From: an uncultured Lachnospiraceae bacterium | GTDB taxonomy: Bacteria; Bacillota; Clostridia; Lachnospirales; Lachnospiraceae | Direction: 5' to 3' | NCBI GenBank assembly: GCA_902761585.1 | Contig: CACWKX010000012.1 | Coordinates: 62,001 to 126,000 of the forward strand | DNA length: 64,000 bases | In this document: in pieces, positions 11,566 to 27,009 of the stretch | How the letters are laid out: each line of letters begins with the position of its first letter | Position numbering within the stretch: the first letter of the stretch is position 1 | Translations under genes and position numbers: made by a program | The notes under the pieces: model-generated | Seen by the model: only the letters and a program-made list of their open reading frames with translations | What the model was told of the DNA's origin: nothing | The model's database searches: none

Positions 11566-12390
11566 ATGATCAAACTGGCAATCTACGGCAAAGGCGGAAT
11601 CGGAAAGTCGACGGTAACCTCGAATCTTTCTGCGGCCTTCGCCATGCGCGGGAAGAAGGTCATCCAGATCGGCTGTGATCCGAAGGCGGATTCTACAGGA
11701 AACCTGCTGGCCGGAAAACCGCTGATGCCGGTGATGAATTATCTCCGCGAGCATGATGAGGATCCGACATCGCTCGAGGAGATCACTGCAAGAGGATTCG
11801 GGAACGTTCTGTGCATCGAGACAGGCGGGCCGACGCCGGGGCTCGGGTGCGCAGGCCGGGGAATCATCTCCACATTCAATCTGCTGGATGATCTGAGGCT
11901 TCTTGAGAGGGAGAAGCCGGATGTGGTGCTCTTTGATGTCCTCGGGGATGTGGTGTGCGGCGGTTTTGCCGCTCCGATCCGGGAGGGCTATGCCGAGAAG
12001 GTACTGATTGTCACGAGCGGTGAGAAGATGGCCCTGTATGCGGCCGGAAACATCAACAGCGCAGTGCTGAATTTTGAGGATCGGGGCTATGCTTCTGTCG
12101 AGGGAATCATTCTGAACCGGAGGAATGTCGAGTCGGAGCGCGAGAAGGTGGAGACATTCGCCCGCGAAAGGGGGTTGCGTATAGTGGCGGACATCCCGCG
12201 GGACAGGGCATTCCAGACAGCGGAGGACCAGGGCAGGACGATTGTCGAGCTGGATCCGGATGGCACGATTGCATTGAAGTTCTTCGATCTGGCAGACCGG
12301 CTGCTGGCGGAAGAAGCCGGCGGAATGACGAGCGGGACGGATACACCTCACGGATTTGGAAAACTGGAGGACTGCGGATGCCCGATGTGA
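11566..12390 (+). CDS. Nitrogenase reductase-like Fe protein (NifH/CfbC/BchL superfamily)
   Basis: This is an ATP-dependent [4Fe-4S] reductase expected to form a homodimer and donate electrons to a nitrogenase-like partner. The P-loop GKGGIGKST is at residues 8-16. The cluster-binding cysteines are at C95 (in GLGCAGRGI) and C131 (in DVVCGGF), and the Arg used for ADP-ribosylation control in NifH is at about R98. The 274-residue length is close to NifH. The C-terminus ends EDCGCPM, adding two cysteines not usual in NifH. It is the only Fe protein for two alpha/beta-like pairs downstream. The next gene starts at 12378, inside its last 13 bases, so the two are translationally coupled. It is clearly a nitrogenase-superfamily reductase; true nitrogen fixation is unlikely given its partners. 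Confidence 0.9.
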   Translation: MIKLAIYGKGGIGKSTVTSNLSAAFAMRGKKVIQIGCDPKADSTGNLLAGKPLMPVMNYLREHDEDPTSLEEITARGFGNVLCIETGGPTPGLGCAGRGIISTFNLLDDLRLLEREKPDVVLFDVLGDVVCGGFAAPIREGYAEKVLIVTSGEKMALYAAGNINSAVLNFEDRGYASVEGIILNRRNVESEREKVETFARERGLRIVADIPRDRAFQTAEDQGRTIVELDPDGTIALKFFDLADRLLAEEAGGMTSGTDTPHGFGKLEDCGCPM

Positions 12391-13763
12391 GACAGGAGAC
12401 AGGCGGCTGCAAGACAGAAGACCTGTTTCAGAAAGGTACTGGCGCCGGCTGCGACGCGGTGCATAAGCCGGGCGGCTGTACGGTTGAGGAGCTCAACAGA
12501 CTGGGGCCGGAGGGGATACCTGAGGAGTATGTGACATCCTCCCACCTGGTGTACAACTCACCGGCGACGCTGGCCTATAACTCTCCCGGAGCGGAGGGCT
12601 TCGGTGTCAAGCGGGCCGGGCTTGCGGTACCGGGCTCGATCATGCTGATTGTATCGCCGGGCTGCTGCGGACGGAACACGGCGGAGATCACAAAAATCAA
12701 GGGATATGAGGAACGCTTCTTCTATCTGGAGATCGGTGAGACCGACCTTGTGACCGGGCGCCACCTGAAGGTGATTCCGCAGGCAGTGGCGGAGATTGTA
12801 GAAAGCTGCCGTGTTCAGCCTTCTCTGGTGATGATCTGCATCACCTGCGTGGATGCGCTTCTCGGGACAGACATGGAGCGGGTTGCCCGGAAGGCGGAGA
12901 CGCTGGTTCAGATCCCGGTGCGTCCCTGTTATATGTATGCGCTGACAAGGGAGGGGAGGCGGCCGCCGATGGTGGCGGTCCGTCAGTCGCTCTATTCGCT
13001 TCTGCCCAGTCAGAAGCGAATCCGGTCAAGTGTGAATCTGCTCGGCTTTTTTGCCCCTGTCGATCCAGACTGTGAGCTGTTTGGGATGCTTCGGGGGATT
13101 GGCGTGAAAACGATCCGGCAGATCTCTACCTGTGAGAACATCGGGGAATTCTACCGGATGGGTGAGGCCAACTTCAATCTGGTGCTGAACCCGGAGGCGC
13201 AGGATGCCGCGGATGATCTGAGCAGGAGGCTTGGCATCCCATCGGTTGCCCTGACCCGGTTCTATGGAGCAGACCGGATCGCGCGGCAGTACCGGGCGCT
13301 CTCAGCCGCGCTTGGGGTAAAATGGAGCTGCGGGGAGGGCCGCCAGGAGGCAGAGGAGGCGCTTGCCAGTCTGAAGAGGCGCTATCCGAAGCTGGTTTTC
13401 TCGATCGGGGAAGTTGTGAATGCAAATCCATTTGAACTGGCCCTGGCCCTTTCGGAGACAGGCTTCTGTGTCCGGGAGATTTTCGCCAACCCGGCTCCGG
13501 AATATGCCTGGTACATCGGCAGGCTGGCAGAGCGCTCGCCTCAGACGATGGTATATTCCAACATGGAACCGACCATGATCTACTACGACATCGCGGAGGG
13601 CGGAGAGCTGCCCTATGCCGTGGCGGTCGGAAAGGATGCGGGGTACTACCACCCGGATGCAGCATTTGTTCCCTGGAATACAGATGAGCAGCCCTTCGGG
13701 TACGCAGGCCTCCGCAGGCTTGCCGAGGCGATCCTCTCGTCCTGCGAGGAACGATATGGCTGA
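12378..13763 (+). CDS. Nitrogenase component 1-like protein, alpha-type (pair 1)
   Basis: The protein of 461 residues belongs to the NifD/NifE/BchN-type oxidoreductase superfamily. Candidate cluster ligands are C96/C97 (SPGCCGRN) and C154/C157 in ICITCVDALLGTD, which aligns by pattern with the CPxGLIGDD motif around NifD Cys154. The position of the FeMo-cofactor ligand His442 (YHGFDGF in NifD) reads PFGYAG here. The Cys275 region (NLVHCYR) reads NLVLNP. A FeMo-co-type cofactor bound in the NifD manner is therefore not expected. The first 40 residues carry three further cysteines. The start overlaps the Fe-protein gene and has CTGGAGG seven bases upstream. It pairs with the gene at 13861. Confidence 0.85.
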   Translation: MPDVRQETGGCKTEDLFQKGTGAGCDAVHKPGGCTVEELNRLGPEGIPEEYVTSSHLVYNSPATLAYNSPGAEGFGVKRAGLAVPGSIMLIVSPGCCGRNTAEITKIKGYEERFFYLEIGETDLVTGRHLKVIPQAVAEIVESCRVQPSLVMICITCVDALLGTDMERVARKAETLVQIPVRPCYMYALTREGRRPPMVAVRQSLYSLLPSQKRIRSSVNLLGFFAPVDPDCELFGMLRGIGVKTIRQISTCENIGEFYRMGEANFNLVLNPEAQDAADDLSRRLGIPSVALTRFYGADRIARQYRALSAALGVKWSCGEGRQEAEEALASLKRRYPKLVFSIGEVVNANPFELALALSETGFCVREIFANPAPEYAWYIGRLAERSPQTMVYSNMEPTMIYYDIAEGGELPYAVAVGKDAGYYHPDAAFVPWNTDEQPFGYAGLRRLAEAILSSCEERYG

Positions 13764-13860
13764 GGCGCAGGCACCAGGCTGAAGGCGGCTTACGCAGCGG
13801 CCAGCCGGTGCAGTGGGAAAATGACTTTACAAAGCACAGTGAAGAAGGGAGGACAAGTAC

Positions 13861-15114
13861 ATGAGGGGACTGCGGAAAGTCCTGACGCCCTTTGCACCCG
13901 ACCAGTCAGGGGCGGAGTCTGTCCTCTATGAGCTTGGCGGGATCATTGTCATCCTGGATGCCGGCGGCTGTGCCGGGAATATCTGCGGGTTCGACGAACC
14001 CAGGTGGTCCAGCAGAAAATCAGCGGTCTTCTCAGCAGGGCTGAGGGATATGGACGCCGTGATGGGACGGGACAGGCTTCTTGTGAAGAAGATCTGCCGG
14101 TGTGCAGAGAAGATCGACGCCCGTTTTATCGCGGTGATCGGCACGCCGGTTCCGGCTGTGATCGGAACAGATCTGAGCGCGGTCAAGCGAATGATCGAGG
14201 CACAGATCAGCCTGCCGGTCCTTACGATGGCAACGGATGGCATGCATCTGTACGACCGGGGCGTGCAGCTGGCGTACATGGCCCTTCTCAGAGAGCTGGA
14301 CCGCCGGGGGATGCTTGAAGAACCAGGAAACTCGGACCAGAAACCTGACAGGGCGGAGGGACATGCGAACCAGAATCCGGACGGGGCAGCGAGAGACATG
14401 GAGCGGCAGCCTGACGGGGCGGCGGGACGCATGGAGTCGGCGGCGTTCCCGGATGGAAGAAGAACCAGGCGGGCAGGTGTCTTTGGCGTCACACCGCTTG
14501 ATCTGCCGGATGGACAATGCGCGGAGCTGATCCGGCTGGCGCTTCAGGCAGAGGGCTATGACGAGGTGATTTTGTATGGAGACGGCGCGGCTCTGGAGGA
14601 TTACAGGCGGGCCGGGGAAAATGACGTCAACATCGCCGCCTCACCGGACGGTTTGGAAGCCGTTCATTTTCTGAATCAGCGGTTTGGGACGCCGGTTGAG
14701 GTGCGTTTTCCGGGTGCGGTGCGCATGCTGGAAAGAGCAGAGCGTGAAAGGTCAGACCGTGAAAAAGCAGACTATAACAGACCAGACTGTGAAAGGCCAG
14801 AGAGACAAGGAAAGTCCTGCACGCTGATTGTCCAGAGCCAGATTCTGGGATGCTCCATCCGTGAGGCACTCATAAAGCAGGAGCCTGGACAGAGAATTGT
14901 GGTGGCAAGCTGGTTTGAAATGGACCAGGGGCTGATGCAGCCGGGGGATGTCCGCCTGCGGGAGGAAGATGACTTCACGCACCTGGTTCAGATGCTTAAG
15001 CCAGACAGGATGATCGCAGACCGTGTGGTGGAGAGACTGATCCCGGCGTTTGAAGGGACATTTGTTCATCTGCCGCAGTTTGCCGTCTCCGGAAAGAGCG
15101 AGGCAGCCGTCTGA
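13861..15114 (+). CDS. Nitrogenase component 1-like protein, beta-type (pair 1)
   Basis: This 417-residue protein resembles the second subunit of nitrogenase-like enzymes. It has an N-terminal VLYELGGIIVILDAGGC segment with C37 and C42 (GGCAGNIC), followed by GTPVPAVIGTDL, the counterpart of the NifK motif CMAEVIGDDL but without the Cys. The match with the beta-type protein at 21821 is strong (ALYELGGMVVIHDPSGC, SPVPYLNGTDF). Residues about 153-203 are a low-complexity Asn/Asp/Gly/Ala linker with repeated PDGAA units, and about 292-322 is an Arg/Glu/Asp-rich repeat (RAERERSDREKAD). GGGAGG precedes ATG 13861. The gap to the alpha gene is 97 bases. The function follows from its partner and is inference. 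Confidence 0.8.
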   Translation: MRGLRKVLTPFAPDQSGAESVLYELGGIIVILDAGGCAGNICGFDEPRWSSRKSAVFSAGLRDMDAVMGRDRLLVKKICRCAEKIDARFIAVIGTPVPAVIGTDLSAVKRMIEAQISLPVLTMATDGMHLYDRGVQLAYMALLRELDRRGMLEEPGNSDQKPDRAEGHANQNPDGAARDMERQPDGAAGRMESAAFPDGRRTRRAGVFGVTPLDLPDGQCAELIRLALQAEGYDEVILYGDGAALEDYRRAGENDVNIAASPDGLEAVHFLNQRFGTPVEVRFPGAVRMLERAERERSDREKADYNRPDCERPERQGKSCTLIVQSQILGCSIREALIKQEPGQRIVVASWFEMDQGLMQPGDVRLREEDDFTHLVQMLKPDRMIADRVVERLIPAFEGTFVHLPQFAVSGKSEAAV

Positions 15115-15257
15115 AGTTGATCCGCCGGCGCCGTCAGCCCGACCGCAGGGGGCGGACAAGAGGCCGGTGGCCGGGCTGAAACAGGCAGGGCTGAACAAAA
15201 CAAACAGAGGCGAGAGAACCAAACTGCAACAGGAAGGCTGGATGGACAGGCACAGGG

Positions 15258-17765
15258 ATGGAGAAGACCGAGAGAAGACAGATCAGAGTATACGGAATCG
15301 TTCAGGGGGTTGGGTTTCGGCCTGCCGTTGACCGCCATGCTCATGCGCTTGGAATCCGGGGGACGGTGGCCAACCGGGGAAGCTTTGTGGAAATCAACGC
15401 GGAGGGTGTGCCCTCTGTTCTCGATGAATTTGAGAAGCGTGTGAAGGAACAGCCGCCGGAGCGGGCGGTCATCCTGAAAATGGATGTGAAGCTGCTGGAA
15501 CAAAGCCCTGCCGCCGGATTCGGGGACATAGCGGGACAGAGCCAGGGGTCGGATGGCTTCCGGATCGTCGAGAGTGAGAAAACCTCTGGGGAGATTTTCA
15601 TATCGCCGGACATTGCCATCTGTGATACCTGCAAGGCGGAGCTCTTTGACAAAAACAGCAGGCGGTATCTTCACCCTTTCATCAACTGTACATGCTGCGG
15701 GCCGCGTTTCTCGCTTCTGGAGGCGCTTCCCTATGACCGGGAACGCACATCGATGAAAAAGTTTCCGATGTGCCCGCAGTGCCGCCGGGAATACTTTGAC
15801 CCAAAGTCACGTTTCTATGATGCACAGCCGGTCTGCTGCAACGACTGTGGACCGCAGGTGTATCTGATCGAGCGAGCAGGAGAGACTGACAGGAGAATTT
15901 CTGTCCGAGGCGCCGCGGCCATCAGCCGGGCACGGCAGATTCTGGTGCAGGGCGGAATCATTGCTGTGAAGGGAATTGGCGGCTTTCATCTCGCATGCAA
16001 TGCAGCAGACGAGGATGCGGTGACGCGCCTCAGAAGGCTGAAGAGACGGCCGATGAAACCGTTTGCCGTCATGGCGAGAGATGAGGCGGTTTGCAGGCGG
16101 GAGTGTGAAGTTTCCCCTGAGCAGCACCAGATTCTGACAGGTCATCAGAAACCGATCCTTCTGCTTCCAAAGAAGGCAGGAGGCCGGATCTGCAGCGCTG
16201 TGGCACCGGACATCCCGACCATCGGCATGATGCTTCCGTATGCGCCGATTCAGCTTCTGCTTTTCACCTATGAGGACGCTTGGCAGGAACGAATGCCGGA
16301 TGTGCTCGTCATGACGAGCGGTAATGCGTCCGGTGCCCCGATTGCCTCAAACGATGCGGAGGCACTGGATGAGATCGCAGGCTTCTGCGACGCCATCCTG
16401 TCCAACAACCGGGACATCCGGATCCGGACGGACGATTCGGTCATGGATTTTTACGACCATGCGCCGTATATGATTCGCCGTTCAAGAGGATACGCGCCGC
16501 TCCCATTTCTGGTGAGCCGGCCGTATCAGGGACAGGTGCTCGGGATTGGCGGAGAGCTGAAGAACACGTTCTGTCTTGGAAAGGATCAGATTTTCTACCC
16601 GTCTGCCTATGTCGGAGATCTGGCGGACCTGCGGACGGTGAAGGCGCTTGAGGACGCGGTCAAAAAGACAGAGACGCTTCTGGAAATGAAGCCGCAGGTC
16701 ATCGCGGCGGATCTTCACCCGAAGTATAACTCGACCCTGGTGGCGGAGAAGCTGGCGGAGGAGCGCGGGATTCCGCTTCTGCGCGTGCAGCATCACTATG
16801 CACATGTGCTCTCCTGCATGGCCGAAAATGACTATCTGGAGCCTGTCATCGGTGTTTCATTTGACGGAACCGGATTCGGGACGGATGGTACCATCTGGGG
16901 CGGCGAGTTCCTGCTGTCGGATATCGGACACTTTGAGCGGGGCGGTCACATCGCGCCGTTCTGGCAGATCGGCGGCGACACGGCGGCAAGGGAAGGCTGG
17001 CGGATTGCGGTATCCATGCTGCAACAGATCTTCGGCGCCGGGGCAGATGACCTCATCCGCCGCCTCGGGCTGTGTGACGAAATGGCAGCAGGCGCCTTGA
17101 AGGTACTCTTTACCCGGAAAATCAACGCGGTACAGTCTACCAGTGCGGGCAGGCTGTTTGATGCCGTCAGCGCAATCCTGGGAATCCGGCGGGCATCCAC
17201 ATATGAGGGGGAGGCAGCCACGGCGCTGATGTACAGCGCCATGCGGGGGAGAGCGCATGCAGCCGGCAGCTTGGCTTCCCTGACAGAGCTTTGCCAGTCC
17301 GGGGACAGTTTGGCGCAAAACAGGCAGGCAGTAGAAGCGGGCGGACAGCCGCAGCCGGATGGAGCACCGCAGCCAGGTGTCTTACCGCATCCGAATGTGC
17401 TGCCACGGCTGAACAACCTGCCGCAGCCGGATGTCCTGCCGACTGATTCACTCGTGCGGGCGCTTGTCCTGGCAAAGCTGGACGGAGCCGGAAGCGAAGA
17501 ACTGGCATATGAATTCCACAGGGGGCTGGCACAGATGATTGTGCGGGAAACAGTTTCGCTCAGCGAAAGAACGGGCGTGAAGACGGCGGCTCTGACAGGG
17601 GGCGTTTTCCAGAACCGGCTCCTTCTGGAGCTTGTGGAGAAAGGGCTTCAGGCAGAAAAGATTCAGGTGCTGCGCCACCATCTGGTTCCCCCGAATGACG
17701 GCGGCATCGCGCTGGGACAGGCACTCTATGCGATGGCGGCGCTGGGACAGGAAAACGGCGTGTAG
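15258..17765 (+). CDS. hypF: Carbamoyltransferase HypF (cyanide ligand synthesis)
   Basis: HypF turns carbamoyl phosphate and ATP into a carbamoyl group delivered to the C-terminal Cys of HypE, the source of the cyanide ligands of [NiFe] hydrogenase. Domains appear in the standard order. An acylphosphatase domain has VQGVGFRP near residues 15-22. Two zinc-finger units follow (CDTC...CTCC and CPQC...CNDC) at about 120-197. Next come a YrdC-like domain (about 220-400) and a Kae1-like domain with HHYAH at 512-516 and SFDGTGFGTDG. The 835 residues exceed the norm because of a Pro/Gln-rich linker at about 671-731 (PQPDGAPQPGVLPHPN). The start at 15258 has a weak site. No HypA or HypB gene accompanies it. 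Confidence 0.95.
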   Translation: MEKTERRQIRVYGIVQGVGFRPAVDRHAHALGIRGTVANRGSFVEINAEGVPSVLDEFEKRVKEQPPERAVILKMDVKLLEQSPAAGFGDIAGQSQGSDGFRIVESEKTSGEIFISPDIAICDTCKAELFDKNSRRYLHPFINCTCCGPRFSLLEALPYDRERTSMKKFPMCPQCRREYFDPKSRFYDAQPVCCNDCGPQVYLIERAGETDRRISVRGAAAISRARQILVQGGIIAVKGIGGFHLACNAADEDAVTRLRRLKRRPMKPFAVMARDEAVCRRECEVSPEQHQILTGHQKPILLLPKKAGGRICSAVAPDIPTIGMMLPYAPIQLLLFTYEDAWQERMPDVLVMTSGNASGAPIASNDAEALDEIAGFCDAILSNNRDIRIRTDDSVMDFYDHAPYMIRRSRGYAPLPFLVSRPYQGQVLGIGGELKNTFCLGKDQIFYPSAYVGDLADLRTVKALEDAVKKTETLLEMKPQVIAADLHPKYNSTLVAEKLAEERGIPLLRVQHHYAHVLSCMAENDYLEPVIGVSFDGTGFGTDGTIWGGEFLLSDIGHFERGGHIAPFWQIGGDTAAREGWRIAVSMLQQIFGAGADDLIRRLGLCDEMAAGALKVLFTRKINAVQSTSAGRLFDAVSAILGIRRASTYEGEAATALMYSAMRGRAHAAGSLASLTELCQSGDSLAQNRQAVEAGGQPQPDGAPQPGVLPHPNVLPRLNNLPQPDVLPTDSLVRALVLAKLDGAGSEELAYEFHRGLAQMIVRETVSLSERTGVKTAALTGGVFQNRLLLELVEKGLQAEKIQVLRHHLVPPNDGGIALGQALYAMAALGQENGV

Positions 17766-17823
17766 CCGCCTGCTTAGCAGCGATCATAACATAGCTGGAG
17801 ACAACAGGAAGGAAGAGAAAGAG

Positions 17824-18030
17824 ATGTGTGTAGGGTTATCGGCAAAGGTTGTCAGTGTGAAGGATGATGTGGCGATTGTGGATGCCAGTGGTGCCAGACG
17901 AAAAGTCTCAGCGGCATTGCTTTCGGATCTGGAACCGGGCGACTTTGTGATGGTGCATGCGGGGACGGCGATCGCGAAGATTACGGACGATGACGAGGAA
18001 GAATCGGGGGCACTGCTCGACTTACTGTGA
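17824..18030 (+). CDS. hypC: Hydrogenase maturation chaperone HypC
   Basis: HypC carries the Fe(CN)2CO unit together with HypD and delivers it to the target apoprotein. The protein is 68 residues and starts MCVGLSAKV, with the essential Cys at position 2 that binds the iron. The beta-barrel sequence (VVSVKDDVAIVDASGARRKV, then DLEPGDFVMVHAG) is typical, and an acidic tail ends it. AGGAAG lies upstream of ATG 17824. It sits between hypF and hypD as in canonical hyp operons, with hypD beginning 31 bases after its stop. Since no [NiFe] hydrogenase large subunit is nearby, the acceptor of its cargo is an open question. Confidence 0.93.
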   Translation: MCVGLSAKVVSVKDDVAIVDASGARRKVSAALLSDLEPGDFVMVHAGTAIAKITDDDEEESGALLDLL

Positions 18031-18061
18031 GCGTACCACGTCGTATGACAGGGAGGAAGCT

Positions 18062-19111
18062 GTGAACCAGACGATTGAGCGGGCAAAGGAAATTCTGACA
18101 CGGTACGACGGGCCGCACTGCCGGATCATGGAGGTCTGCGGAACCCATACCCATGAGATTTTCCGGCAGGGAATCCGCCGGATTCTGCCCGAACAGATTG
18201 AATTGATATCCGGACCGGGATGCCCTGTCTGTGTGACACCAGTAGGCTTCATCGATGAAGCCATCTGGCTGGCGCTTGAGAAGGGTGTGACGGTCTGTAC
18301 ATTTGGCGACCTCGTCCGGGTGCCGGGTACAGAAGCTTCGCTTCAAACCGCGAGGGGGAAAGGCGCAGCCGTCAAGGTGGTCTACACACCACTCGATGCA
18401 GAGCGGTACGCTGCAGAGCACCCTGATAAGCAGGTTGTGTTTCTGTCGGTTGGTTTTGAGACGACAACGCCGTCTGCCTGTCTGGCGGTCCGGAAGGCAC
18501 AGCAGGACGGGATCCGGAATTTTTCACTTCTGACGGCCAACAAGACAATGCCCGGTGCCTATGAGGCGATGAAGGACTCCACCGATCTGTTTCTGTATCC
18601 GGGACATGTCCATGCCATTACCGGAACCGGAATCTGTGAAAAGCTGGCAGAGGAAGGCGTGAGCGGCGTCTGTGCCGGGTTCACGGCGAGCGAACTGCTG
18701 GCCGCGCTGGCGGTGGCGGTTACCCGTTATCAGGAAGGAAAACCGTTCTTTGTGAACTGCTATCCGAGGGTCGTCCGGCCGGAGGGAAGTCCGAAGGCAC
18801 AGTCGCTTGTGGCGGCGATGATGGAGCCGTGCGATGAGGAATGGCGGGGAATCGGCGTCATTCCAGGCTCCGGCATGAGACTGAAGGAGTCCTGTCAGAT
18901 GTATGACGCAAGAGTCAGGTTCCGGGTTCCGGAGATGGCAGGCCGTGCGAACCCGGCCTGCCGGTGCGGGCAGGTGCTGAAGGGTGAACTTCTTCCGCCC
19001 CAGTGCAAGGTGTTCGGGAAAGCCTGCACACCGGAGCACCCGGTCGGCGCCTGCATGGTATCGTCGGAAGGCGCCTGCTCCGCCTGGTATCTGTATGGGC
19101 AGAATCTGTGA
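18062..19111 (+). CDS. hypD: Hydrogenase maturation factor HypD
   Basis: HypD is the [4Fe-4S] scaffold on which the Fe(CN)2CO moiety is built with HypC and with cyanide from HypE. The conserved motifs are present: EVCGTHTH near residue 23, GPGCPVCVTP with the redox-active cysteines, PGHVHAITG, and the C-terminal CRCG...CKVFGKACTP...GACMVSSEGAC that binds the cluster. I chose GTG 18062 because AGGGAGGAAG lies just upstream and the resulting 349 residues match the family; an upstream ATG at 17957 would overlap hypC. The invariant cysteines are intact, so the protein should be functional. Confidence 0.95.
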   Translation: MNQTIERAKEILTRYDGPHCRIMEVCGTHTHEIFRQGIRRILPEQIELISGPGCPVCVTPVGFIDEAIWLALEKGVTVCTFGDLVRVPGTEASLQTARGKGAAVKVVYTPLDAERYAAEHPDKQVVFLSVGFETTTPSACLAVRKAQQDGIRNFSLLTANKTMPGAYEAMKDSTDLFLYPGHVHAITGTGICEKLAEEGVSGVCAGFTASELLAALAVAVTRYQEGKPFFVNCYPRVVRPEGSPKAQSLVAAMMEPCDEEWRGIGVIPGSGMRLKESCQMYDARVRFRVPEMAGRANPACRCGQVLKGELLPPQCKVFGKACTPEHPVGACMVSSEGACSAWYLYGQNL

Positions 19112-19142
19112 AAAACCGAATCTTCGGATGAAGGGAGCAAGT

Positions 19143-20147
19143 ATGACAGATACGATCACGATGGCGCACGGCGCCGGTGGGAAACAGACATCGGAGCTGA
19201 TTCACGGCATCTTTGAAAAGCACCTTGGCAATGAATATTTCACGGCAGACGATGCGGCTGTGCTGCCGCCAGTCTGCGGCCGCCTTGCAATGACAACGGA
19301 CGGTTTCATCGTGTCGCCGCAGTTTTTCCCCGGCGGGAACATCGGAAAGCTCAGCATCTGCGGCACGGTCAACGATCTCTCCTGCATGGGGGCCCGTCCG
19401 CTGTACATGACCTGTGCCTTTGTGATTGAAGAAGGGTTCCGGATTGACGAGCTGGATCAGATTGCGGCAGCAATGGCAAAGACAGCCGGTGAGGCAGGCG
19501 TCCGGCTGGTGGCGGGAGATACGAAGGTCGCCGGAAAGGGACAGTGCGGCGGTGTCTTCATCACGACAACCGGCGTCGGGGAGATTGTGGAAGGTGTACG
19601 GATGTCCGGCGCCTGCGCCAGACCAGGGGATGCCGTGATTGTGACAGGGGATATCGGCCGCCATGGGACAGCGATCCTGCTGGCGCGGGATGATTACGGC
19701 ATAGAGGCAGAGGTGACAAGCGACTGTGCTCCGCTCTGGAAACCGGTCGAGGCTGTTTTGTCATCTGGTCTCAGACCGCATGTCATTCGTGATGCGACCA
19801 GAGGCGGTGTCGGGACTGTGCTCTACGAGATCGCGGCAGAGTCGGGTGTCGGTATCCGGCTGGAGACCGAGAAGATCCCGGTTCAGCCGGCTGTCCGGGG
19901 TGTGACAGGCATGCTGGGGCTGGAGCCGCTCTACCTTGCCTGTGAGGGGCGGCTTGTGATTATCTGCCCACAGGAAGAGACCGGAAGATTGATGGAAATT
20001 CTTCACGGCCAGACCTGCACCGAGGGCGCTGCTGTGATCGGCTGTATCACGGCGGAGAACAAAGGACGGGTCGTCATGACGACCCAGATCGGGGCACAGA
20101 CCCTGCTGCCGGAGCCGGGAAATGAGCTTCTCCCCCGGATCTGCTGA
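19143..20147 (+). CDS. hypE: Carbamoyl dehydratase HypE
   Basis: HypE dehydrates the thiocarbamate received from HypF to thiocyanate, the donor of CN for the iron centre. The PurM-like fold is seen in AHGAGGKQTSELI, FTADDAAVL, TKVAGKGQCGG and DATRGGVGTVLYEIA. The protein ends exactly in PRIC, the C-terminal Cys that carries the carbamoyl/cyano group, so the key residue is intact. AAGGGAGC precedes ATG 19143. The product is 334 residues. A 20-base direct repeat begins at its stop codon. It completes a HypF-C-D-E set that is sufficient in principle to make Fe-CN groups. Confidence 0.95.
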   Translation: MTDTITMAHGAGGKQTSELIHGIFEKHLGNEYFTADDAAVLPPVCGRLAMTTDGFIVSPQFFPGGNIGKLSICGTVNDLSCMGARPLYMTCAFVIEEGFRIDELDQIAAAMAKTAGEAGVRLVAGDTKVAGKGQCGGVFITTTGVGEIVEGVRMSGACARPGDAVIVTGDIGRHGTAILLARDDYGIEAEVTSDCAPLWKPVEAVLSSGLRPHVIRDATRGGVGTVLYEIAAESGVGIRLETEKIPVQPAVRGVTGMLGLEPLYLACEGRLVIICPQEETGRLMEILHGQTCTEGAAVIGCITAENKGRVVMTTQIGAQTLLPEPGNELLPRIC

Positions 20148-20234
20148 ATGGCGGGGTATTGAAGGCGGGATGATCGAGAGTTTCTCCGGTATCCTTGACT
20201 TCGAACCTGACAGAAATGGCGGGGTATTGAAGGC
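20147..20234 (+). repeat. 20-base direct repeat pair after hypE
   Basis: AATGGCGGGGTATTGAAGGC occurs at 20147-20166 and again at 20215-20234, a period of 68 bases. The first copy overlaps the last base of the hypE stop codon. Both copies are followed by a GATGAT-containing segment. The pair fills most of the gap before the next gene. Confidence 0.9.
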
Positions 20235-20306
20235 ATGATGATGGGGAGAGCAGAGCCCCGGGACAGACGAACCGTAAAGCAGAAGGAAGCAGGAAGGAGG
20301 GACAGG

Positions 20307-21824
20307 ATGCTGACCAGAATCGGACCGCAGGAAGAGCAGGTATGCTGCCAAAAGTCAGGCTGCGGAAATCCGGAGCGTCCGGCTCACTGCACATCTGAGG
20401 CACTGGTGCGGATCGGCGATGCCTGCTTCCCGAGGCCGTTCCCATGGCGGCTGGAATACAACTGCCCGGTTCATGAGAACTGGAACATTGTCCACACCGG
20501 CATGCTGATCCCACAGACGCGCCAGATCTATGTCTGCTCGCAGAACTGCCTGCGGGGCGTCATCATGACAGCCGGGGAGATGGACTGTGCGGGCCGCATT
20601 TCCTCGGTGATGCCGACAGAGCGGGAAGTCGTCGGCGGAAGGCTTGAGAAAGTCACGATTGAGGGGACAAGCGATCTGATAGACCGCCTGCAGGAGCGGC
20701 CAAGAGCAGTGGAGCTGTTTCTGGTCTGTATGCATCATCTGTGCGGAGCCGATGAACGGTACATTCTGAAGGAGCTTCGAAGAAGGTTTCCGGATATTGA
20801 CTTCATGGGCTGCTGGATGGACCCGATCATGCAGAAGGTGTCACTGACGCCGGAGCAGAAACAGAGAAAAAGCATGATGGCGGTGATTCCGAAGAGGCCG
20901 GTGAACCGCCGGTCTGTCAGTGTTTTCGGGGACAACCTTCGCCTTCCGCAGACATCCGACCTCACCAGAGTGCTGGGAAGGCTAGGCATCCATGTGCGGC
21001 AGGTCATGGACTGCAGAAACTATGATGCCTACCTGGACATGGGGGACAGCTTTCTCTATCTCACCCGCTCGGCGTTGTCTGTCTATGGTCTTCAGGCGCT
21101 TGCCGGGAAAAATGAACGTCCCTGTCTCTATCTTCCGCCGGTGGCGCTGGACGGCCAGATCAGGGAAGCCCTCCGGAGTCTGCTGACAGCAGCCGGACAG
21201 GAAGGCGGGGCGCCGGATGAGAAGCTTTCTGCATTTTTAAAGCAGGAACAGTCGTCGGCCAGACAGGCGTTTTCCCGGGCCAGGGCCGTGATCGGAAACA
21301 CGGAGGTGTGGCTGGACTATCTTGCATGTCCGCGTCCGCTGAGCATGGCGAGGCGCCTGCTGGAGGAAGGTTTTCGTGTGACGAGAATCTGTCTCGACAG
21401 CATCAGCCCGGAGGAACGGGAGGATTTTGACTGGCTGAAAGCGCAGGCGCCCGACCTTCTGCTGCAGTCAACCAGCCAGGTCGAGGCCAGGCAGAGAGCG
21501 CGCATTGCGCCAGGCATGCTGCAGGGGAAACCGGAAGAGTGCCGTATTCTGGCGATCGGACCCAAGGCGGCATTCTTTGCTGCTACGCCCTTCTTTGTGA
21601 ACTGGATTGAATATGACGGGAATTGGGGCTACGATGGCCTGAGAAAACTTGCATCGGCAATGATCGATGCATATCAAAGGCCGAAGGACCTGCGCGATAC
21701 GGTTCAGCGGAAGGGGCTCGGCCTGCCGTCGCTCCCGGGAAGGGAGGAGGACAGAGACCATGCCTGTGCGCCTTCTTCCTCGGACATAACTGCTTCCGCC
21801 AAAGGGAGGGGAGGAGTCCGATGA
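20307..21824 (+). CDS. Nitrogenase component 1-like protein, alpha-type (pair 2) with Cys-rich N-terminus
   Basis: This 505-residue protein is a second NifD/E-type subunit. Its C-terminal stretch YDGNWGYDGLRKLASAM aligns by pattern with the NifD region around His442, with Trp where the FeMo-co His would be. Cysteines cluster at the N-terminus (13, 14, 19, 28, 40, 53) and at positions 77, 81 and 94, with CMHHLCGAD at 141-149 as the counterpart of the Cys154 motif. The extra cysteines could hold an additional Fe-S cluster. AGGAAGGAGGG precedes ATG 20307. The stop overlaps the next start (ATGA at 21821-21824), so this pair is tightly coupled. By analogy with NifEN it could be the assembly pair, or the catalytic one. 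Confidence 0.82.
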   Translation: MLTRIGPQEEQVCCQKSGCGNPERPAHCTSEALVRIGDACFPRPFPWRLEYNCPVHENWNIVHTGMLIPQTRQIYVCSQNCLRGVIMTAGEMDCAGRISSVMPTEREVVGGRLEKVTIEGTSDLIDRLQERPRAVELFLVCMHHLCGADERYILKELRRRFPDIDFMGCWMDPIMQKVSLTPEQKQRKSMMAVIPKRPVNRRSVSVFGDNLRLPQTSDLTRVLGRLGIHVRQVMDCRNYDAYLDMGDSFLYLTRSALSVYGLQALAGKNERPCLYLPPVALDGQIREALRSLLTAAGQEGGAPDEKLSAFLKQEQSSARQAFSRARAVIGNTEVWLDYLACPRPLSMARRLLEEGFRVTRICLDSISPEEREDFDWLKAQAPDLLLQSTSQVEARQRARIAPGMLQGKPEECRILAIGPKAAFFAATPFFVNWIEYDGNWGYDGLRKLASAMIDAYQRPKDLRDTVQRKGLGLPSLPGREEDRDHACAPSSSDITASAKGRGGVR

Positions 21825-23215
21825 AGGAAGCGTACAGAATTCTGCCGGTCTGCGCCGGGGATGTTTCAGGAATCGCCTCTGCCCTCTATGAGCTGGGCGG
21901 GATGGTTGTGATTCATGACCCCTCCGGTTGCAACTCAACCTACAATACACATGATGAGATCCGCTGGTACGACCAGGAAAGCTACATCTTCATATCCGGT
22001 CTCAATATGCGGGATGCCATCCTTGGAAATGACCGGAAGTTCATCGACGATATCGTGGAGGCGGCGGGGGAGCTGGACCCAAAGCCCTGTTTTATTGCGA
22101 TCTGCAACTCTCCGGTTCCTTATCTGAACGGGACTGATTTTAGTGGGATCTGTAGAATTGTAGAGGCGCGGTGCGGAATCAAAACGTTCTATGTGCCCGG
22201 GAACGGGATGCACGATTATGTCAGAGGAGCGGGGCGTGCCTTCCTGGAATACGCGCGTCGGATGCTGCCAGCACCCGGTCAGGGAACTGGCAGCAGCGCA
22301 GAGCTGGCTGTCAGCCTGAAGGCCACTTGTTGCACTGATTCGGTTTCGGGCCAGAAAGCCGACCGTGGCGCACAATTGCCAGTCAGTGAAAGGGTGTCCT
22401 GTGGATCAGAGTCTTCAGTCAGATTGCAGGCCGTGCGTGATATGGATTCTCAGGGTTTTGTACCGGGGACCGGACAGTCCCGCAGGCCAAGAGTGTGTGT
22501 GCTGGGAGCAACACCGCTGACATATGGAAACCGAAAGACGATTCCGCACCTGAGGTGTATCCTTCAAAAGGCTGGATTCGATGTGACGGCGGTCTGGGCG
22601 ATGGGCAGTACGCCGCAGGAAATTTACAGATCGACAGATGCAGATGTAAATCTGGTTATCTCTGACACGGGCATCCTGGCTGCAAGGTATTTGAAGGAAA
22701 CGTATGGGATCCCGTTCGTTGCGGGGGCGCCTGTCACGCGGAAACTGTGGGCAGAGCTGGCGAGAAAACTGATGGAAGCGGCAGAGCGGCCCCTCCAGCG
22801 TCAGCAGGATGAAACCGCCTTCCTGATGCGGTTAGATGCGGCGGGGACGCGTAACGGCGGAAAATCTGTTTCCATCTTAATCGGAGAGGCCGTTCTGTCT
22901 GCTTCGCTGGCAGCGTCTGCGAGGGGGACAGCGATGATCCTGTGCCCATTTCCGGACAGCAAGTCCTTGCTTGGACCCGAAGACCGGTTCTTTGATGGCG
23001 AAGAAGAGCTGACCGAATGCATCAGCGATGTCCGGCGGGATCATCCGGATACTGAGATTGGCATCTGGGCAGATCCTATGTACAAATCCGTTCTTCCGGC
23101 AGACTTGGTATTCCATCCCCTTCCTGCACTGGCATGTTCAGGGCGCCTGTACAGGACAGAGTTTCCGGATTATTTTGACTGGGTCGAAGAGGATGGCATG
23201 CAGGATAACCTGTGA
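21821..23215 (+). CDS. Nitrogenase component 1-like protein, beta-type (pair 2)
   Basis: The protein of 464 residues is a paralogue of the beta-type subunit at 13861. Both have an ALYELGG core followed by a single conserved Gly-Cys (C37 here, DPSGC), a TDG or GNGMH segment and a second domain opening with VLGATPL or VFGVTPL. Unlike its paralogue it keeps a Cys (C95) just before SPVPYLNGTD, at the NifK Cys153 position, and it has C11. Between the domains, at about residues 149-221, lies a variable Ser/Gly/Ala-rich linker, at the same site as in the paralogue. GGGAGGGGAGGAG precedes ATG 21821, which overlaps the upstream stop by four bases. Confidence 0.82.
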   Translation: MKEAYRILPVCAGDVSGIASALYELGGMVVIHDPSGCNSTYNTHDEIRWYDQESYIFISGLNMRDAILGNDRKFIDDIVEAAGELDPKPCFIAICNSPVPYLNGTDFSGICRIVEARCGIKTFYVPGNGMHDYVRGAGRAFLEYARRMLPAPGQGTGSSAELAVSLKATCCTDSVSGQKADRGAQLPVSERVSCGSESSVRLQAVRDMDSQGFVPGTGQSRRPRVCVLGATPLTYGNRKTIPHLRCILQKAGFDVTAVWAMGSTPQEIYRSTDADVNLVISDTGILAARYLKETYGIPFVAGAPVTRKLWAELARKLMEAAERPLQRQQDETAFLMRLDAAGTRNGGKSVSILIGEAVLSASLAASARGTAMILCPFPDSKSLLGPEDRFFDGEEELTECISDVRRDHPDTEIGIWADPMYKSVLPADLVFHPLPALACSGRLYRTEFPDYFDWVEEDGMQDNL

Positions 23216-23289
23216 AGGATACATGGGAACAGACAATAAACAGACAATATTTGAAATGTCGGTGCATACGGAAATGGGAGGAAAGGACC

Positions 23290-24594
23290 ATGGGTATGAT
23301 GAGCGAGGCGCCATCTTCAGAGCGGGTGCAGATCGGATTCTTCGGCATCCGGAACGCGGGAAAATCCAGTGTGGTGAATGCGGTGACCGGGCAGAATCTG
23401 TCTGTGATCTCCGACACGCCGGGGACGACTACGGATCCGGTCCGAAAGGCGATGGAAATCTCCCCCATCGGGCCGGTGGTGGTTATCGATACGCCAGGCT
23501 TTGATGATGAAGGGGAGCTTGGGACAATGCGTGTCGCGAAGACGAAGGAAACGCTGAGACGGGTGGACGTTGCGGTCCTGGTGGTGGACGGAACACGCGG
23601 GATGAGAGCAAAGGACAGAGAGCTTCTAGATATCTTTGAAAAGCTGCGCATTCCGTATGTTGTCGCGCTGAACAAGGCCGATCTGATGCAGCGGGTGCAG
23701 GAAACGAAGACGGAGATGACCGGTGCTGTCTCTCAGAGCCGGGAATTATCAGCGGGAGCAGCAGAAGTCCTGCCGCAGGTTGGCAGGGAGGCGGAGCGGC
23801 GGGCTGTGCCTCACGCGGAGTTTGCAGTCAGTGCGAAAACAGGCTGGCACATCCGGGAACTGAAGGATCTGATCGGAAAGCTGGGCAAGGCGAAAATCAG
23901 TTCACGCGGACTCCTTGACGGTCTGATTGAGCCGGGCGATCTGTTTGTGCTGGTCATCCCGCAGGATGCCTCCGCACCGAAGGGGCGGCTGATCCTCCCG
24001 GAGCAGATGATGATTCATGAGATTCTGGATCATGCCAGCATGGCGCTCTGTTGTCAGCCGCCGCAGCTTCGCCAGACGCTTGCTTTTCTTGCGCAGTCCG
24101 GGAAGAAGATCCGGATGGTGATCACTGATTCGCAGGCTTTCTCTGAGGTGTCAAAAGCTGTGCCGGAGGAAATCCCGCTTGCATCCTTCTCCATTCTGAT
24201 GGCACGCTACAAGGGTGTCCTGGAGGAAGCGGCCAGAGGCGTGAAGGCGGTAGACATGCTTCAGGATGGCGATAAGGTTCTGATGTCGGAAGGCTGCACA
24301 CATCACAGGCAGTGCCAGGACATCGGTACCGTGAAGATTCCGGCCTGGCTGCGGGCATACACGAAAAAGAACATTTCCATCGAGACATCCAGCGGCTTCG
24401 GCTTCCCGGAGGATCTGAGCCCGTACCGCATGGTGATCCATTGCGGCGGCTGTATGCTGAATGAGAAGGAAGTGCAGAGCAGGATGCGGCAGGCGAAGGA
24501 GCAAGGTGTTCCATTTACAAACTATGGAATCACGATTGCCTATATGAATGGCATTCTTCAGCGGAGCGCAAAGGCGATCGGCCTTTCACTTTGA
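23290..24594 (+). CDS. hydF: [FeFe]-hydrogenase maturation GTPase HydF
   Basis: HydF is the GTPase scaffold that receives the diiron subcluster precursor and transfers it to apo-HydA. The G domain shows GIRNAGKSS (about 19-27), the switch region DTPGTTTDP, DTPGFDD and NKAD. The C-terminal cluster-binding motif is complete: CTH at about 336-338 and HCGGC at about 384-388. Of the two candidate starts, ATG 23290 has GGGAGGAAAGG upstream; the GTG at 23212 lies inside the previous gene's end. The protein is about 434 residues, with a slightly expanded linker near 140-175 after the G domain. Its usual partner HydG is missing from the window. Confidence 0.93.
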   Translation: MGMMSEAPSSERVQIGFFGIRNAGKSSVVNAVTGQNLSVISDTPGTTTDPVRKAMEISPIGPVVVIDTPGFDDEGELGTMRVAKTKETLRRVDVAVLVVDGTRGMRAKDRELLDIFEKLRIPYVVALNKADLMQRVQETKTEMTGAVSQSRELSAGAAEVLPQVGREAERRAVPHAEFAVSAKTGWHIRELKDLIGKLGKAKISSRGLLDGLIEPGDLFVLVIPQDASAPKGRLILPEQMMIHEILDHASMALCCQPPQLRQTLAFLAQSGKKIRMVITDSQAFSEVSKAVPEEIPLASFSILMARYKGVLEEAARGVKAVDMLQDGDKVLMSEGCTHHRQCQDIGTVKIPAWLRAYTKKNISIETSSGFGFPEDLSPYRMVIHCGGCMLNEKEVQSRMRQAKEQGVPFTNYGITIAYMNGILQRSAKAIGLSL

Positions 24595-24652
24595 TGGTGC
24601 ATGAATGTCAGGTGTGAGGCCATTTGCTCTGCGATCTGATGGTGCATGAATG
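24592..24652 (+). repeat. 16-base direct repeat pair after hydF
   Basis: TGATGGTGCATGAATG occurs at 24592-24607, overlapping the hydF stop, and at 24637-24652. The similarity continues imperfectly for about ten more bases (AGGTG, then GA). The period is 45 bases. The second copy precedes hydE. Confidence 0.85.
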
Positions 24653-24705
24653 CTAGGTGCGAAGGTTGCCTGGCTTGCAGACGGAATGACAGATTGGACA
24701 TATGG

Positions 24706-25749
24706 ATGACGAACCGGGATCGAATCGAACAGTTATATCAGACAAGCAACCTTCCGGATGAGGGACTCATGGCACTCCTTGTCAGCATGGACAAAGAAGA
24801 TTTTGACCACCTGTGCAAAAGAGCCTGTGAGGTGCGTGAGAAGGTTTATGGAAGGGAAGTCTATCTCAGAGGGCTGATTGAATTTTCAAACTACTGCAGA
24901 AATGACTGTTACTACTGCGGGATCAGGAGGAGCAACCGGCTGGCTGACCGGTACCGTTTGTCTGAGAATGAGATCGTCGCCTGCAGTGATGCAGGATATG
25001 AACTCGGCTTTCGAACATTTGTCCTGCAGAGCGGGGAGGATCTTTCCTATACGACAGCGGACATCTGCCGCATCGTCAGCAAGATCCGAAACCGGCATCC
25101 GGACTGCGCGGTCACGCTTTCCATCGGGGAGAAAAGCCGAAGCGAGTATCAGGCCTATTACGATGCCGGGGCAGAGCGGTATCTGCTCCGGCAAGAAACA
25201 TCCAACCCGGAGCATTACAGAAAACTTCATCCACCGGGGCTTTCCATCGAGAACCGCAAGCGCTGCCTGTATGACCTTCGGGAGATCGGCTATCAGGTTG
25301 GGTGCGGGATCATGGTCGGGACACCGGGGCAGACACCGGAATATATCATCGAGGATCTTCGATTCATGCAGAAGCTGGATCCTCAGATGATCGGAATCGG
25401 TCCCTTTATCCACCACAAGAATACACCGTTTCGAGATCAGCCGGATGGAACGCTTCAGGATACCCTTCACCTGCTGGCTATCCTTCGGTTGATGTTTCCG
25501 CATGTTCTGCTGCCGGCAACGACGGCGCTTGGGACCATCCATCCACTTGGCCGGGAGATGGGAATCAAGGCGGGCGCCAATGTCGTGATGCCGAATCTCT
25601 CGCCGCGCGGCGTCCGGAACAAGTACCTGCTCTACGACGGGAAGATCTGTACAGGCGACGAAGCAGCAGAGTGCAGGGCCTGCATGGAACGCCGGATTGC
25701 GGCTACCGGATACCAGGTTGTTGTCAGCAGGGGAGATTACCGTGCGTAA
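24706..25749 (+). CDS. hydE: [FeFe]-hydrogenase maturation radical SAM enzyme HydE
   Basis: HydE is a radical SAM enzyme that processes the iron carbonyl-cyanide synthon on the way to the diiron subcluster. The CX3CX2C motif is at C64, C68 and C71 (NYCRNDCYYCGIR), followed by LQSGED, the SIGE segment and GTPGQT, all characteristic. The accessory cysteines near the C-terminus (ICTGDEAAECRAC) are also present. I take ATG 24706, giving 347 residues; an upstream ATG at 24646 would add a Cys-rich tail of 20 residues and lies in the repeat region. HydE sits with HydF and with HypCDEF rather than with HydG, which is unusual. Confidence 0.9.
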   Translation: MTNRDRIEQLYQTSNLPDEGLMALLVSMDKEDFDHLCKRACEVREKVYGREVYLRGLIEFSNYCRNDCYYCGIRRSNRLADRYRLSENEIVACSDAGYELGFRTFVLQSGEDLSYTTADICRIVSKIRNRHPDCAVTLSIGEKSRSEYQAYYDAGAERYLLRQETSNPEHYRKLHPPGLSIENRKRCLYDLREIGYQVGCGIMVGTPGQTPEYIIEDLRFMQKLDPQMIGIGPFIHHKNTPFRDQPDGTLQDTLHLLAILRLMFPHVLLPATTALGTIHPLGREMGIKAGANVVMPNLSPRGVRNKYLLYDGKICTGDEAAECRACMERRIAATGYQVVVSRGDYRA

Positions 25750-25809
25750 GCAACAACAGTCGACATTGGATGAGTACAGGCCTTTGCGGCTTGAATGCTG
25801 GAGGGTGGA

Positions 25810-27009
25810 ATGAGCAAGGATGAGTATGAGAAAGTACAGAGTCAGGCTGTACGGGCTTCCAAGCGACGGTCTGATGTGGTTGTGCTGACGGCGTGCCCGG
25901 ACTACAGTGAGGAACATGCAAGGGCTGCCGTGTGCAGCGCGCTGGAAAAATGGCCGGGCCTTTCAGGGATCAGGCCGGGCGTACGGGTTGCGGTGAAGGT
26001 CAACCTGGTAACGGGCGCATCACCGAAGAAAGCTGTGACGACGCACCCGCAGCTGGTGACGGAGCTGTGCCGGCAGCTGACCATGCGCGGCGCTGAGGTG
26101 ACGGTAGGAGACAGTCCGGGCGGCCTGTTCACAAGGGAAGCCCTCAGGCGGGCGTACCGTGAATCGGGCATGGAACAGATTGAGCAGACTGGCGCAAAAC
26201 TGAATGATGACATAGAGACGGAGAATGTGACATATCCGGGGGCAGCGGCCGCGCATGTCTTCAGCTGTACATCCTGGCTGAGAAAGGCGGATGTGATCAT
26301 CAACTTTGCAAAGCTGAAATCACACGGGATGATGCGTCTGACAGCGTCGGTCAAGAACCTGTTCGGAGCTGTCCCGGGAACGACGAAGCCGGAGTACCAT
26401 ATGCGGTTTCCAAACGAGACAGCCTTCGCCAACATGCTGATTGATCTGAACGAGGCACTCCAACCGGCACTGAATCTTGTCGATGCAGTCGTCTGCATGG
26501 AGGGAAATGGACCGACAGCCGGATCACCCCGCCCGCTGGGCCTGGTTCTTTCATCGGAAAATCCTTACAATCTGGACATGGTCTGCGCGGAGCTGATTGG
26601 GCTCCATCCTGAGGATGTGCCGACACTTCGCTGTGCAGCCAGCCGCGGACTCGGGCCATCCGGGCTTCAGGAGGTTGAGATTTCAGGAGAGCGGCCGGAA
26701 CAGTGGAAGCTCACCGATTTCCGGCAGGCAGACGGCGTCCGGGTTACATTTACAGGGAATGGCGTGCTTGGCCGCCTGCAGGAGGCCATTTTCAGAAGTG
26801 CAATGCAGCAGATGCCCAAGGTACATCCGTCCGAGTGCATCGGCTGCAGGAAATGTTTCAACGTCTGTCCGGCCAGGGCAATCACGATGGTGAAAGGAAA
26901 GCCAAAGATCGACAGAAAACGATGCATTCGCTGTTTCTGCTGCCAGGAATTCTGCCCAAGGGGCGCGATGAAAGTGCACCGCACGCTGCTGGCAAGGCTT
27001 CTTCAGTAA
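25810..27009 (+). CDS. DUF362 protein with C-terminal 2[4Fe-4S] ferredoxin domain
   Basis: The first 330 residues match the DUF362 domain (VAVKVNLVTG, GDSPGG, NFAKLKSHG, KNLFGAVPG), a family found with Fe-S oxidoreductases whose role is not settled. The end is a bacterial-type ferredoxin domain from about residue 340: CIGCRKCFNVCP, then CIRCFCCQEFCP, binding two [4Fe-4S] clusters. GGAGGGTGG precedes ATG 25810, 60 bases after hydE. As the last gene of the cluster it could pass electrons to the NifH-like Fe protein or take part in cofactor assembly; both are inference. The paralogue at 49847 has a different sequence and its ferredoxin motif is central. Confidence 0.85.
   Translation: MSKDEYEKVQSQAVRASKRRSDVVVLTACPDYSEEHARAAVCSALEKWPGLSGIRPGVRVAVKVNLVTGASPKKAVTTHPQLVTELCRQLTMRGAEVTVGDSPGGLFTREALRRAYRESGMEQIEQTGAKLNDDIETENVTYPGAAAAHVFSCTSWLRKADVIINFAKLKSHGMMRLTASVKNLFGAVPGTTKPEYHMRFPNETAFANMLIDLNEALQPALNLVDAVVCMEGNGPTAGSPRPLGLVLSSENPYNLDMVCAELIGLHPEDVPTLRCAASRGLGPSGLQEVEISGERPEQWKLTDFRQADGVRVTFTGNGVLGRLQEAIFRSAMQQMPKVHPSECIGCRKCFNVCPARAITMVKGKPKIDRKRCIRCFCCQEFCPRGAMKVHRTLLARLLQ

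Follow-up and report, generated by a model that had tools for sequence, protein, structure and literature searches.

What brings the cyanide-forming proteins of [NiFe]-hydrogenase maturation, two maturation proteins of [FeFe]-hydrogenases and two pairs of nitrogenase-like subunits together in one cluster of genes that includes no hydrogenase? The question is raised by a stretch of 64,000 nucleotides from an uncultured Lachnospiraceae bacterium (positions 62,001 to 126,000 of contig CACWKX010000012.1, assembly GCA_902761585.1; the window in what follows). Twelve genes, all on the + strand, occupy 11566-27009 of the window in the order NifH-NifD1-NifK1, HypF-HypC-HypD-HypE, NifD2-NifK2, HydF, HydE and a DUF362-ferredoxin gene. 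HydG is the enzyme accepted as supplying [FeFe]-hydrogenases with CO and cyanide, and we think it likely that in organisms with this cluster HypFCDE and the nitrogenase-like reductases replace HydG in assembly of the H-cluster, leaving HydE, HydF and the hydrogenase HydA unchanged; the chemistry of the separate steps is something that we infer.

The twelve-gene arrangement is real, and it is a conserved unit. The co-directional run described in a first-pass annotation of this DNA is confirmed by the coordinates, the genes overlapping (by 13, 4 and 4 bases) or being separated by 143 bases at most. When an alignment of NifD1 was compared with 84,980 species genomes, 243 relatives were confirmed, and the loci of the best 80 were fetched. 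Among these 80 are Lachnospiraceae (Blautia, Roseburia, Coprococcus, Eubacterium ramulus and Faecalicatena), Clostridium carboxidivorans, C. ragsdalei (L107), C. luticellarii, and metagenome-assembled genomes (MAGs) of Coriobacteriaceae and Atopobiaceae. The recurring order, NifH-D1-K1-HypF-C-D-E-(NifH2)-D2-K2, spans Bacillota and Actinomycetota, which excludes a chance association. Where at least 7.5 kb were available behind NifD1, HypC, HypD and HypE were present in all 64 loci (a synteny check suggested with the first-pass annotation, which thus gave a positive answer for the hyp genes), HypF in 63 (L042 being without it), NifD2 in 62, NifK2 in 56 and a second NifH in 36. In six genomes (G018, G163, G276, G361, G412 and G417), open frames of 813-895 amino acids running through NifD1 suggest NifH-NifD1 fusions.

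Do these organisms possess HydG as well? In a sample of 50 genomes drawn from the 80 loci (17 isolates, and 33 MAGs taken in order from those with loci of 12 kb or more), HydG over its cut-off was found in none, and an [FeFe]-hydrogenase domain (PF02906) in all; HydF exceeded its cut-off in 48, and 49 had a match in the HydE range (defined by the score on the HydG model, on which verified HydE gives 67 bits). The exclusion was also seen in a family set of 396 genomes, each at least 90% complete, in which the cluster was called by NifD1 at over 300 bits. NifD1 occurred in 33 of these, HydG over cut-off in 183 and HydF in 230. HydG was in none of the 33 cluster genomes, against 183 of the other 363 (Fisher p 3.7e-10, not corrected for kinship), and HydF was in all 33. 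Within the 230 HydF genomes, 181 had HydG, 33 had the cluster, none had both and 16 had neither (Fisher p 3.8e-28 for cluster against HydG, likewise uncorrected for kinship). The pattern of exclusion is strong. As [FeFe]-hydrogenase is constant in the 50-genome sample, and HydG is absent both there and from the 33 family genomes, the step left empty by HydG is the simplest destination for a CN/CO-bearing iron. Elsewhere, C. carboxidivorans has no HydG over cut-off, and in a control group, the Coriobacteriia, HydG was present in 33 of 296 genomes, six known cluster genomes there having only a HydE-range match (the cluster itself was not searched for in this group).

The genome from which the window comes (98.2% complete) has no HydG over cut-off, its sole match to the HydG model being the window's HydE, and on other contigs it encodes two [FeFe]-hydrogenases; the three H-cluster motifs (TSCCPAW, MPCTAKKME and EVMACRGGCVMGGGQP) are all present in one of them. 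When this HydA was compared with solved structures, no entry was named from a HydG-free species, judging by names alone. The cluster's open reading frames include no hydrogenase gene, HypA, HypB or HydG (HypB and NifB were not searched for genome-wide); the absences listed in the first-pass annotation hold for the cluster but not, in the case of hydrogenase, for the genome. Its proposal of a nitrogenase-like enzyme with a CN/CO-ligated metal centre survives in part: the pairs and the Hyp proteins do form one functional unit, but the constant presence of [FeFe]-hydrogenase without HydG points to a different owner for the centre.

Could HydG simply be dispensable, HydE and HydF taking trace or imported CO and cyanide, with the cluster only correlating with a lineage-specific lack of HydG? 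Comparison of close relatives speaks to this. In each of five genera of the 396-genome set, a species that has the cluster can be paired with another that has HydG (G412/G154, G424/G172, G434/G192, G260/G476 and G275/G488; as most genomes without a match are unlisted, there may also be congeners lacking both systems). The window's own genus provides a sixth exchange, as HydG is present in one of its 19 genomes, G010, together with standard-family HydE and HydF and without HypD (G010 is outside the 396-genome set, and its lack of the cluster is judged from the lack of HypD and from two loci); a further member, G005, combines HydE and HydF with a lack of both HydG and HypD. Such exchanges in six genera indicate replacement rather than a lineage effect. 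The idea of dispensability does draw support from the 16 HydF genomes with neither system, from which it follows that other routes exist and that loss of HydG does not in itself demand the cluster. In one of the 16, G144, the HydG model gives a sub-threshold match of 8e-78, perhaps to a gene for a damaged or incomplete HydG. Further support comes from activation of about 1% by HydE and HydF without HydG, as cited in the relevant part of a 2022 survey of acetogens (PMC9431212), and from four genomes with HydE and/or HydF, no HydG over cut-off and no Nif or Hyp gene nearby, in which these genes adjoin an SsuA-like ATP-binding cassette (ABC) importer. Deletion of hydG in C. thermocellum, however, is described as abolishing [FeFe]-hydrogenase activity (PMC4355364) and, with the six exchanges also against it, we hold dispensability to be very unlikely.

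The four loci just mentioned deserve a description of their own: at L017 10597-16000, L133 5181-10643, L134 6718-10575 and L135 9203-13834, the SsuA/NMT1-like importer lies directly beside HydE and/or HydF, an arrangement suggestive of uptake of a cofactor precursor or component; NifD1 was absent from these genomes where it was searched for. ThiH as a hidden HydG was considered and rejected: matches of about 150-217 bits to the HydG model (ThiH-range by score) occur in 21 of the 50 cluster genomes and are absent from 29, so ThiH is not a general substitute. In a tree of HydE, cluster, HydG and other labels are intermingled, and the cluster label must have changed at least four times, suggesting that HydE does the same work for either supplier.

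Might the Hyp genes instead work for a [NiFe]-hydrogenase in another part of the genome, with the nitrogenase-like genes and HydEF as unrelated neighbours? The Fe(CN)2CO part of such enzymes is normally made by HypCDEF, and the window's own genome has an Ech-like [NiFe] operon (L011, contig C22), in the examined stretch of which no HypF was seen (other HypF copies were not searched for genome-wide). This operon nevertheless carries its own HypC, HypD and HypE, together with a HypA-like open reading frame just under the HypA cut-off, and a [NiFe]-hydrogenase large-subunit match was found, besides that in the own genome, in only seven of the 50 cluster genomes, 43 being without one. The cluster HypD, moreover, is on a separate branch: in a tree of 32 rows out of 83 distinct ones (the window, one cluster row in three and the complete [NiFe]-type group of five), 27 cluster rows were split from the five [NiFe]-type rows at 99/100 support, and the HypD of the window is 59-96% identical to those of 82 cluster loci and 46% identical to the Ech-linked HypD of its own genome. 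Given also the constancy of HypCDE in the 64 NifD1 loci, these Hyp genes are not a displaced [NiFe]-hydrogenase operon, and service to a distant [NiFe]-hydrogenase, largely refuted by these observations, is extremely unlikely. The operon of an interrupted [NiFe]-hydrogenase was rejected because of the same scarcity of large-subunit matches.

What do the proteins themselves tell us? The NifH-like ATP-dependent Fe protein (11566..12390; Pfam Fer4_NifH 3.2e-83) has the P-loop GGIGKST and, as claimed in the first-pass annotation, both cluster cysteines (Cys95 and Cys131). Its claim of two nitrogenase-like pairs is also sound, Oxidored_nitro being matched by four proteins (1.8e-26, 1.4e-13, 1.1e-8 and 4.7e-24): NifD1, a nitrogenase-component-1-like subunit (12378..13763), with its partner NifK1 (13861..15114; the match of 1.4e-13); and the second alpha-type subunit, NifD2 (20235..21824, although the true start may lie further in), with its partner NifK2 (21821..23215; 4.7e-24). 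NifK2, the start of which was set by alignment with relatives, shares 4 bases with NifD2 and 4 with HydF, and an alignment with relatives showed Cys37 to be invariant across K1 and K2. An Fe protein and the component-1 fold are both present, and the full nitrogenase-type folds of the pairs place them in the nitrogenase superfamily. The NifH-like protein falls under the NifH, CfbC, BchL and BchX cut-offs (295 bits against 394 for NifH); the best curated score of NifD1 is 51 bits against a cut-off of 505, and no NifH, NifD, NifK or NifE cut-off was passed. In a profile alignment to 9p1x_A, a gap lies opposite the alpha-subunit cysteine that we take to be a cofactor ligand, with no cysteine nearby, the histidine ligand being outside the alignment. 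Nitrogen fixation was rejected on these two grounds, the failed nitrogenase cut-offs and the unmatched cysteine ligand.

The cyanide-forming set is intact, as had been claimed. HypF carbamoyltransferase (15258..17765; TIGR00143, 691 bits against a cut-off of 466) retains two intact C-x2-C-x18-C-x2-C zinc fingers; HypC (17824..18030; TIGR00074, 57.5 bits against 48; Pfam HypC 6.2e-21) begins with MCVG; HypD (18062..19111; TIGR00075, 371 bits against 193) probably starts at the GTG at 18062, to judge from the reading frame and relatives; and HypE (19143..20147; TIGR02124, 395 bits against 252) ends in PRIC, with its C-terminal cysteine. HydE and HydF also have the cluster motifs attributed to them, with scores far above the cut-offs: the HydF GTPase scaffold (23212..24594; TIGR03918, 509 bits against 326) has intact CxH and CxxC, and the HydE radical S-adenosylmethionine maturase (24646..25749; TIGR03956, 550 bits against 255) both of its cysteine motifs (C-x3-C-x2-C and C-x7-C-x2-C). 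The last gene (25795..27009; Pfam DUF362 6e-54) encodes a DUF362 protein with two 4Fe-4S motifs; among the loci compared it was found only in a close relative (G004/L012), and it is probably a local neighbour and not a core part. Just upstream of the cluster is a CbiG-like cobalamin gene (9638-10759), preceded by genes recognized by eye as uvrB, uvrA and a serine-acetyltransferase-like gene; downstream, at 31212-31892, is a regulator-like open reading frame, in the translation of which a stretch with many E, A and G residues (EEAAGAGLGGK) is repeated in frame.

The two pairs differ in their company. NifD1-NifK1 is always beside Hyp, whereas eight loci have NifD2-NifK2 but neither NifD1 nor Hyp: L114-L118, L121, L122 (the contig of which starts inside NifH, with upstream genes outside view) and L125. 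Set aside from this group were L026, on a truncated contig, and L150, from a cluster genome with a weaker NifD1. Pairs without hyp or hyd genes had been named in the first-pass annotation as evidence that would count against it; NifD2-NifK2 is indeed found without Hyp, yet in seven of the eight loci HydF or HydE is in the fetched stretch. Because their partners differ in this way, NifD1-NifK1 with Hyp is a candidate for HydG's role and NifD2-NifK2 for a step near HydE/HydF. In the window one Fe protein is common to both pairs, about half of the relatives having a second. Five of the eight genomes have no HydG (G206, G220, G296, G340 and G452). In L114-L118, L121 and L125 the NifH-NifD2-NifK2 genes are accompanied by a siderophore/heme-type substrate-binding protein (Peripla_BP_2), often with a FecCD-like permease and an ATPase, and usually by HydF/HydE. 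Other NifH-D-K-like loci (L113, L119, L120, L123, L124 and L126-L132), only 24-36% identical to these pairs, have no Hyp, HydE or HydF in the stretch and would be additional systems of nitrogenase-like type.

Could one or both pairs be an enzyme in its own right, with active-site iron bearing Hyp-made CN/CO and acting on an unknown substrate, HydE and HydF helping to build the centre? The unbroken tie of NifD1-NifK1 to Hyp and the full nitrogenase-type folds would suit such an enzyme, as would the existence of two different pairs, which might divide the roles of scaffold and enzyme between them as NifEN and NifDK do. It would not, however, predict the absence of HydG or the constant [FeFe]-hydrogenase; no substrate transporter, regulator or pathway gene recurs in the core (the neighbours having been compared in part); and Dos Santos 2012 (PMC3464626), in the sentence concerned, inclined to metallocluster assembly. 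We therefore regard a free-standing enzyme as unlikely.

How, then, might the cluster stand in for HydG? In the sections on maturation, PMC13360658 has HydG converting tyrosine to FeII(Cys)(CO)2(CN), HydE reducing and dimerizing this unit, and HydF completing the work with aminomethyl-lipoyl-H-protein, and PMC9431212 gives Fe(CN)2CO as the product of HypCDEF. In the route that we propose, HypF and HypE would make cyanide from carbamoyl phosphate, and HypC-HypD would attach this cyanide to iron, giving an Fe-CN/CO unit. NifH and NifD1-NifK1 would then use ATP to alter this unit, its ligands or its redox state; since the Hyp product is Fe(CN)2CO and the HydG product Fe(CO)2(CN), cyanide would have to be removed or CO added, for example by reduction of CO2. 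Removal of cyanide by reduction and formation of CO from CO2 are both among the capabilities of nitrogenases. The altered unit would pass to HydE, the maker of the diiron unit, and HydF would hand the product to the hydrogenase, NifD2-NifK2 perhaps contributing a second ATP-driven reductive step at the HydE/HydF stage. The action of NifH-NifD1-NifK1 on the Hyp-made unit is the least secure part of this mechanism. The C. thermocellum strain without hydG reportedly lost its activity despite having hypABFCDE (PMC4355364), from which it appears that ordinary Hyp proteins alone cannot substitute for HydG and that something more is needed; this fits with the constant company of NifH-NifD1-NifK1.

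Several observations weigh against replacement of HydG by the cluster. PF02906 also picks up non-catalytic and sensory homologues of [FeFe]-hydrogenases; one of the 50 cluster genomes is without a HydE-range match, and two MAGs are without HydF over the cut-off. The 16 HydF genomes with neither system belong here too, as do three genomes with Hyp-free NifD2-NifK2 that have HydG (G402, G433 and G295). HydF or HydE is inside the fetched flank in only 19 of the 80 loci (counting HydF above a score floor that excludes other GTPases), so linkage to them, although common, is not universal. Motif-based HydG candidates are given for C. autoethanogenum, C. drakei and C. scatologenes in the part of PMC9431212 that deals with maturation. 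Lastly, the Hyp proteins deliver two cyanides and one CO per iron and HydG one and two, respectively (PMC9431212 and PMC13360658, in the portions concerned), and conversion of one product to the other is a conjecture. Overall, we lean somewhat towards a third route to iron-cyanide-carbonyl units, in which an ATP-driven nitrogenase-like machine would turn Hyp-made Fe(CN)2CO into Fe(CO)2(CN) for HydE, so that the [FeFe]-hydrogenases of many anaerobes and industrial acetogens would be built with cyanide from carbamoyl phosphate, without tyrosine or HydG.

If the cluster does replace HydG, a single pathway unites the two worlds of hydrogenase maturation with the nitrogenase family. This would explain [FeFe]-hydrogenases without HydG in C. 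ljungdahlii, C. ragsdalei, and cluster-bearing species of Blautia, Roseburia, Coprococcus and Coriobacteria, would account for HypCDEF without HypAB in some of these organisms, and would give a likely job to the red-clade nitrogenase-like proteins of a 2012 census. The pieces of the puzzle have been noticed separately. A single sentence of Dos Santos 2012 (PMC3464626) tells of two linked NifHEN-like copies associated with hydrogenase maturation proteins and suggests an assembly role; these copies are very probably the system described here, and that sentence mentions neither the absence nor the replacement of HydG. In its account of maturation genes, the acetogen survey (PMC9431212) counted five species out of eight with HydE/HydF and no HydG found, and again five of the eight with HypCDEF but not HypAB. 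Both traits are combined in C. ljungdahlii, C. coskatii, C. ragsdalei and strain AWRP; the authors there had no straightforward explanation for the lack of HydG and HypAB. In the literature searched, subscription papers and preprint servers not being covered, no paper joins the Nif-Hyp association with the absence of HydG or proposes a replacement for HydG.

Matches to NifEN, dark-operative protochlorophyllide reductase (BchNB), CfbD and methylthio-alkane reductase show 12-19% identity, all under the curated cut-offs. The cluster shares with HypABCDEF maturation of [NiFe]-hydrogenases the proteins HypF, HypC, HypD and HypE with intact motifs, but it has no HypA or HypB, is in genomes mostly without a [NiFe]-hydrogenase and has a HypD branch of its own. 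With HydEFG maturation it has in common standard-family HydE and HydF, and the target is likewise a standard [FeFe]-hydrogenase that bears the H-cluster motifs; the difference is that HydG is missing, and HypFCDE with NifH-NifD1-NifK1 appear to take its place.

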